64,000 bases of DNA. Source: Bradymonas sediminis (GTDB lineage: Bacteria > Myxococcota_A > Bradymonadia > Bradymonadales > Bradymonadaceae). Location: the NCBI RefSeq assembly GCF_003258315.1, contig NZ_CP030032.1:3288501-3352500 (forward strand), written 5' to 3'. Below the pieces are notes generated by a model. The model made no database searches and was not told the DNA's origin. It worked only from the letters and a program-made list of their open reading frames with translations. This document shows, piece after piece, positions 16,103-19,013 of this stretch; the first letter of the stretch is position 1; each line of letters starts with the position of its first letter. A program made the translations under genes and the position numbers.

Positions 16103-16123
16103 ACCTGCAAGCCACTTGCAAGT
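16103..16123. promoter_or_regulatory. Candidate Fur/Zur-family operator, site 1
   Basis: A 21-base interrupted palindrome, ACCTGCAA-N5-TTGCAAGT, differing by one base from the arms of site 2. It also contains the perfect decamer ACTTGCAAGT. It lies 35 bases upstream of the lipoprotein start, between divergent genes. Confidence 0.7.
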
Positions 16124-16150
16124 CAGGCCCAGCTAGCACACCTCAAAACC

Positions 16151-16171
16151 ACTTGCAAGCTAGTTGCAAGT
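16151..16171. promoter_or_regulatory. Candidate Fur/Zur-family operator, site 2
   Basis: A perfect inverted repeat, ACTTGCAA-N5-TTGCAAGT, spacer GCTAG. It lies 48 bases from site 1 and 60 bases upstream of the regulator's ATG. The paired arrangement suggests control of both divergent transcripts. Confidence 0.75.
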
Positions 16172-16230
16172 AGAGCCCGCTTCCATTAGACTTTGCGCGT
16201 TCACGCTCCCCCCCACTGCCGAGATACAAA

Positions 16231-16665
16231 ATGACCATCAACAAGGACGAGGCACGCAGGCTACTCCACGAAAGCAACCTCCGCGCCACCGCTCCGCGAG
16301 TCGCGGTACTTCAAATACTTGCCTCCTCCCGCACCCCACTGTCACACACCGAGGTCCTTGAGCTCTTGGGTGAGACCGACTGGGATCCGGCCACGATCTA
16401 TCGAAACCTGGTAAAGTTGCGCGATGCCGGGGTTGCGCCAGTGGTCAGTCGCGTCGAAGGCATTGACCGTTACTCGCTCGTCCGCAATCAGCACGACGAA
16501 CACCGACACCCCCACTTCATCTGCGAAGATTGCGGCCAGATCGCTTGCTTGCCCGCCGAGCTAACCGCTTCAATGTTGCTCGAAGGCCCCTGGGCCAACT
16601 CCATCCAGAGCGCGATGGTCCAGCTTCGCGGCGAATGCCCGGATTGCCTGGAACCGCCCCCCTGA
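16231..16665 (+). CDS. zur: Fur-family metal-responsive repressor, probably Zur
   Basis: A 144-residue Fur-family protein. The winged-helix half contains NLRATAPRVAVLQIL and the recognition helix region DPATIYRNLVKLRDAGV (about 52-68). The dimerisation half has the structural zinc site C98-x2-C101 and C136-x2-C139, plus a His cluster (H88, H91, H93, H95 in DEHRHPHF) for the sensory metal. Fur, Zur and PerR cannot be separated by motif alone. I favour Zur because the divergent operon encodes a CobW GTPase and a His-rich lipoprotein. Two candidate operators lie upstream, so it is probably autoregulated. The ribosome binding site is weak (GAG). Confidence 0.85.
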   Translation: MTINKDEARRLLHESNLRATAPRVAVLQILASSRTPLSHTEVLELLGETDWDPATIYRNLVKLRDAGVAPVVSRVEGIDRYSLVRNQHDEHRHPHFICEDCGQIACLPAELTASMLLEGPWANSIQSAMVQLRGECPDCLEPPP

Positions 16666-16721: not shown

Positions 16722-16757
16722 AAAAAAAGGCCCGGTCACAATGAAGTGACCGGGCCT
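16722..16757. terminator. Bidirectional terminator, icd and zur
   Basis: AGGCCCGGTCAC and GTGACCGGGCCT form a 12-bp stem with a 6-base loop. On the minus strand it is followed by seven T residues, ending the isocitrate dehydrogenase transcript. The gene for the Fur-family regulator converges from the other side. Confidence 0.9.
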
Positions 16758-16778
16758 CTACACCATCATGCCATCAAC

Positions 16779-19013
<2,235 letters not shown>

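Follow-up and report, generated by a model that had tools for sequence, protein, structure and literature searches.

Two near-identical 21-bp palindromes that separate a Fur-family gene from a divergent lipoprotein-zigA operon in Bradymonas sediminis are, with a probability that we put at about 85%, bound as operators by the product of that Fur-family gene; this protein is predicted to act as a zinc-responsive, autoregulated Zur-type repressor. A sequence-only reading of the locus had suggested that the repeats may be a new Zur-type operator, and control by a Zur-type protein encoded next to them is now supported by sites at the regulator and at zinc genes across genomes. The stretch of DNA analyzed, referred to below as the window, is 64,000 nucleotides long and contains the following features:

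15177-13942, minus strand: ZigA-type COG0523/CobW GTPase P0002 (NCBIfam NF038288; CobW and CobW_C domains)
16068-15202, minus strand: His-rich lipoprotein P0003 (from the translation; partial EGF-like Pfam matches)
16103-16123, no strand assigned: operator 1, on the lipoprotein/zigA side, ACCTGCAAGCCACTTGCAAGT, read directly
16151-16171, no strand assigned: operator 2, on the regulator side, ACTTGCAAGCTAGTTGCAAGT, read directly
16164-16169, plus strand: TTGCAA half-site, probable -35 hexamer of the regulator gene, 17 bp before 16187-16192
16187-16192, plus strand: TAGACT, probable -10 hexamer of the regulator gene, assigned from its conserved spacing from operator 2
16231-16665, plus strand: Fur-family regulator P0001, 144 aa (Pfam FUR, 47.7 bits; cut-off 23.1)

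The predicted operators and their setting

Both near-identical inverted repeats described by the sequence-only reading, one of them perfect, are present and exactly placed, and the flanking genes, a Fur-family regulator and a His-rich lipoprotein/CobW operon, are those that it named. Operator 1 is an 8 + 8 palindrome with one mismatch, and the 8 + 8 arms of operator 2 match perfectly. The two lie 48 bp apart from start to start, leaving an intervening gap of 27 bp, and both are located inside the divergent region between the Fur-family gene on the plus strand and the lipoprotein gene on the minus strand.

When up to three mismatches were allowed, the pattern occurred three times in the window, compared with 0.38 matches expected in shuffled sequences; its two exact matches were operators 1 and 2. 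The full 21-mer, searched with up to two mismatches, was confined to this locus in the whole 5.05-Mb genome. Together, the observed match count relative to the shuffles and the genome-wide uniqueness exclude a chance origin of the palindromes. An operator profile was trained on 30 sites from other genomes, with the B. sediminis genome left out. It scored operators 1 and 2 at 27.1 and 26.3, respectively, the next best position in the window reaching 11.6, and its consensus is WTGCAAGYNRCTTGCAW, in which GCA..TGC is invariant and GCAA..TTGC nearly invariant among the 30 sites. A cmsearch of the B. sediminis genome returned the two operators as its top matches (rough E-values of 0.024 and 0.088 for operators 1 and 2) and no further place with E < 0.1 in the 5.05 Mb. 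The third match (L216, E 0.6) fell inside a coding region. The other exact TGCAA-N5-TTGCA matches in the genome (L003-L005) are located within or next to unrelated genes and appear to have arisen by chance.

The second gene of the operon, zigA, starts 24 bp after the lipoprotein gene, and its product, P0002, is identified as a ZigA zinc metallochaperone by NCBIfam NF038288 (612.6 bits; cut-off 600). The lipoprotein P0003 begins with a signal and a lipobox-like start, followed by a His/Asp-rich linker; it carries a near-identical CxGHGxxHGDxCHCDxGY module at each end and an unassigned domain in the middle, and is weakly EGF-like according to Pfam. The P0003 family is sporadic: with E-values up to 1e-8 accepted, it has members in 17 of the 282 genomes from the phylum, and the closest of these members adjoin zinc genes.

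Sites upstream of zinc genes in related genomes

The conservation scan of related genomes that the earlier reading had called for did not refute its proposal: in many genomes, sites precede the genes of the regulator, of ZigA, ZnuA, and the lipoprotein, and of TonB receptors. Most close orthologues of zigA have a site upstream, including those whose regulator is encoded elsewhere (for example, TTGCAAGCAACTTGCAA at L073), and the sites before zigA occur at several spacings and in several gene orders. The loci of P0003 homologues were chosen without use of the motif. Among the seven best outside the B. sediminis genome, five are closely preceded by between one and three sites (L243, L244, L245, L247, and L249), and the remaining two (L246 and L248) adjoin znuA-zigA clusters. 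The tandem operators upstream of the lipoprotein gene, two in L243 (2458-2491) and three in L245 (2517-2581), are 17-24 bp apart.

Sites were also found at znuA-type operons of relatives (L222, L226, L229-L234, and L237-L239), and at L222 two sites occur together with a regulator of the P0001 type and an operon that pairs an outer-membrane protein gene with znuA. Perfect sites in other relatives precede TonB receptors that match ZnuD best among the NCBIfam families, with scores far under its cut-off, and a perfect site likewise lies upstream of a MerC-family gene. When 57 genomes of the class were searched with the model and without reference to genes, mostly the same target genes were returned.

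As a control, 106 kb of other loci from the same genomes contained no site scoring 13 or higher. The best-scoring PF01297 loci (L106-L135), also used as a control, contained no sites; they look mostly like another metal importer. Among the matches listed for TTGCAA-Nx-TTGCAA in the class, counted by hand, 22 had the N5 spacing, compared with a mean of 7.6 over seven other spacings. In three loci of relatives (L092, L095, and L096), a site lies between the gene of an unassigned outer-membrane-like protein and a divergent hemerythrin-like gene.

Operator core and metal assignment

The initial view that the operators resemble no known box holds only in part: their core is that of the Nur box and nearly that of a Desulfovibrio Zur box. 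The latter, ATGCAACnnnGTTGCAT, was predicted from two sites in two genomes (PMC545781). Compared by box and context, it has the TGCAA-N5-TTGCA core in common with the operators described here, and its zinc context is znuABC-zur_D, whereas its flanks and centre differ from WTGCAAGYNRCTTGCAW. In Streptomyces coelicolor, the box of Nur, the nickel regulator of sodF, sodN, and nikABCDE, is tTGCaa-N5-ttGCAA (PMC3919588); operator 2 fits it exactly and operator 1 with one change. Both systems use a Fur-family protein, and Nur represses uptake genes (PMC3919588).

The identity of the core raises the alternative that P0001 senses nickel, as Nur does, and that the operon serves nickel, not zinc. Nickel can be handled by COG0523 GTPases and His-rich proteins, which also speaks for such a sensor. 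We nevertheless consider it unlikely. The neighboring GTPase is of the ZigA zinc type, and the sites in relatives precede znuA and ZnuD-like genes. The Ni-SOD family is absent from the B. sediminis genome, and in the 2 of 57 class genomes that encode it, no good site was found around it. Whereas Nur senses nickel, the genes linked here are zinc genes, and the regulator is distant by profile: the P0001 clade profile scored 45.5 bits against Nur (3eyy), which does not exceed the 66.9 bits against Fur (9ire) or the 50.1 bits against Zur (4mtd). The core that a nickel sensor uses in Streptomyces thus very probably serves a zinc sensor here, so that the operator sequence alone cannot give the metal.

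By profile, the P0001 lineage is close to none of the solved Fur, Zur, Nur, and PerR proteins. Its rough equidistance from these structures means that family membership gives no metal specificity. When compared with the NCBIfam equivalogs, P0001 passed no cut-off (PRK11639 Zur, 39.8 bits; cut-off 167). Seven residues resembling metal ligands, H93, H95, C98, C101, C106, C136, and C139, are invariant in the clade alignment. A by-eye alignment with E. coli Zur and Fur suggests that C98, C101, C136, and C139 form a structural Cys4 site and that C106 occupies the position of the acidic ligand of both proteins. Judged from the sequence alone, the invariant C106, H93, and H95 lie near the position expected for the regulatory site, which in a Zur would contain sulphur. 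B. sediminis encodes three Fur paralogues including P0001; in our reading, one of the other two looks Fur-like and one PerR-like.

The sites accompany the regulator lineage

Orthologues of P0001 with 58-75% identity were found in several phyla, their hosts including Enhygromyxa salina, Plesiocystis pacifica, Sulfidibacter corallicola, Acanthopleuribacter pedis, Gemmatimonadota, Binatota, a spirochaete, and others. Most orthologous loci have the TGCAA-N5-TTGCA palindrome 30-110 bp upstream of the regulator gene. Enhygromyxa keeps the entire order lipoprotein-zigA, operators, regulator; the operator sequences are kept as well, whereas the distance between the operators and the surrounding intergenic DNA differ from those in the window. 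At least two sites are present in 26 of the 42 regulator loci with sites, mostly 25-29 bp from centre to centre, a range against which the pair in the window, at 48 bp, is at the wide end.

Proximity alone is no proof of cognate pairing, and the palindromes might instead be operators of another DNA-binding protein. We regard this as very unlikely, as the sites follow the P0001 lineage across phyla and usually stand at its own promoter.

Many relatives with znuA sites have a further regulator clade, which shares about 34-40% identity with P0001; its operator keeps the core but varies more in the centre, and this clade is to be kept apart from that of P0001. In the regulator tree, phyla are mixed within supported groups, which suggests that the regulator cassette may have been transferred between phyla, in a tree built on few columns and in part on MAG contigs that are perhaps misbinned.

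Two further observations concern the orthologous loci. An extra half-site, TGCAAG or TGCAAA, directly follows the regulator-side operator in L138, L139, L142, and L144 and is common in orthologous loci; it is absent from the window and could allow another dimer to bind in an overlapping position. The Enhygromyxa regulator gene is followed, on the same strand, by another gene for a COG0523-like GTPase, this one His-rich (L136, 4405-5556).

Overlap with the probable regulator promoter

A TANNNT motif stands exactly 17 bp past the outer TTGCAA half-site in 20 of 42 regulator loci, and other spacings account for at most three loci each. This conserved spacing suggests that the regulator-side half-site probably doubles as the -35 hexamer, in which case the bound repressor would block RNA polymerase. 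The -35/-10 assignment comes from this comparison across loci, since a scan of the region with the sigma-70 consensus found no promoter at the set threshold. Zur boxes over the -35 element are common, and some promoters have two boxes (reviewed in PMC6103462). On the lipoprotein side, no fixed spacing between half-site and promoter was found, and operator 1 is therefore assigned to the lipoprotein promoter by position only.

A terminator scan flagged 16123-16103 on the minus strand, but it is scarcely credible that the repeats act at the RNA level, as hairpins or as terminators of the two divergent transcripts, or that they are chance palindromes, as conservation of the sequence itself goes beyond pairing (GCAA..TTGC across the 30 sites), their placement with respect to genes and their overlap with the -35 element are what DNA operators would show, and the chance expectation is far exceeded. 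The reading of operator 1 as a terminator was rejected on these grounds.

A model for zinc-dependent repression

We propose that in ample zinc, metal-bound dimers of P0001 would occupy the divergent promoter region, one per palindrome. Binding to operator 2 would cover the -35 region in the promoter of the regulator gene itself, switching the regulator off, and binding to operator 1 would cover the lipoprotein-zigA promoter and silence the operon. When zinc drops, the regulator would shed its regulatory zinc and leave the DNA. The resulting derepression would yield ZigA as a zinc-delivering GTPase, the His-rich surface lipoprotein, which is probably a zinc scavenger or buffer, and more regulator.

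Within the B. sediminis genome, sites are present at the regulator and at lipoprotein-zigA only. Neither of its two PF01297 (ZnuA-family) operons has a good site that would point to control of znuABC (best upstream score 3.6), and only weak TCGCAAAACAATTGAAA was found there. Such control is usual for a Zur, though a Zur can do without it. The znu-type operons of B. sediminis may be controlled through sites of low score; alternatively, the regulon may have become smaller in this genome. One of the two operons, of zinc type (L221, genome positions 4109500-4116500), encodes an outer-membrane protein, a His-rich lipoprotein, znuA, an ABC ATPase, and a permease, with no good operator.

Relation to known zinc regulation

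The predicted system shares features with E. coli Zur at znuABC, where Fur-family dimers bind a palindrome (PMC4219657); the R-NNN-Y core is also present here, and dimer binding is predicted. The box differs, two adjoining dimers bind one site in E. coli whereas two separate palindromes are found here, and the profile similarity of P0001 to E. coli Zur is only 50 bits. As at the Zur-regulated zigA/yciC-type COG0523 genes of Acinetobacter and others (PMC2770081, PMC11834433), a gene for a zinc-starvation chaperone lies behind a Zur-type operator. Operator sequence and regulator lineage differ from those systems, and a His-rich EGF-like lipoprotein gene precedes zigA here. We regard the system as well supported but only moderately new, a Zur-type variant of a familiar arrangement with a predicted Zur-like mode of action, in which the family cut-offs do not support membership of P0001 in Zur by sequence.

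Our literature search, which covered the field in part and without RegPrecise, returned no description of a Zur acting at such a box, whether in Myxococcota or in other taxa. The results thus define a motif for the operators of zinc control, together with a regulon, for Myxococcota and several other phyla, none having been reported in the literature searched, and name a candidate family of zinc-capture lipoproteins. A broader proposal, to which we give even odds, is that TGCAA-N5-TTGCA marks a separate and widespread zinc-sensing lineage of the Fur family. This lineage would carry the signature HPHFxCxxCGxxxCLP, with a cysteine replacing the carboxylate of other members, would have spread between phyla as a regulator-zigA cassette, and would read the DNA core of Nur while controlling a new class of surface lipoproteins, His-rich and EGF-like, that capture zinc.

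At the far side of the regulator gene, a strong hairpin followed by a T-run (16726-16759) is probably a terminator; it lies between the regulator and a convergent 740-aa gene (16779-19001) that by eye resembles a monomeric isocitrate dehydrogenase.
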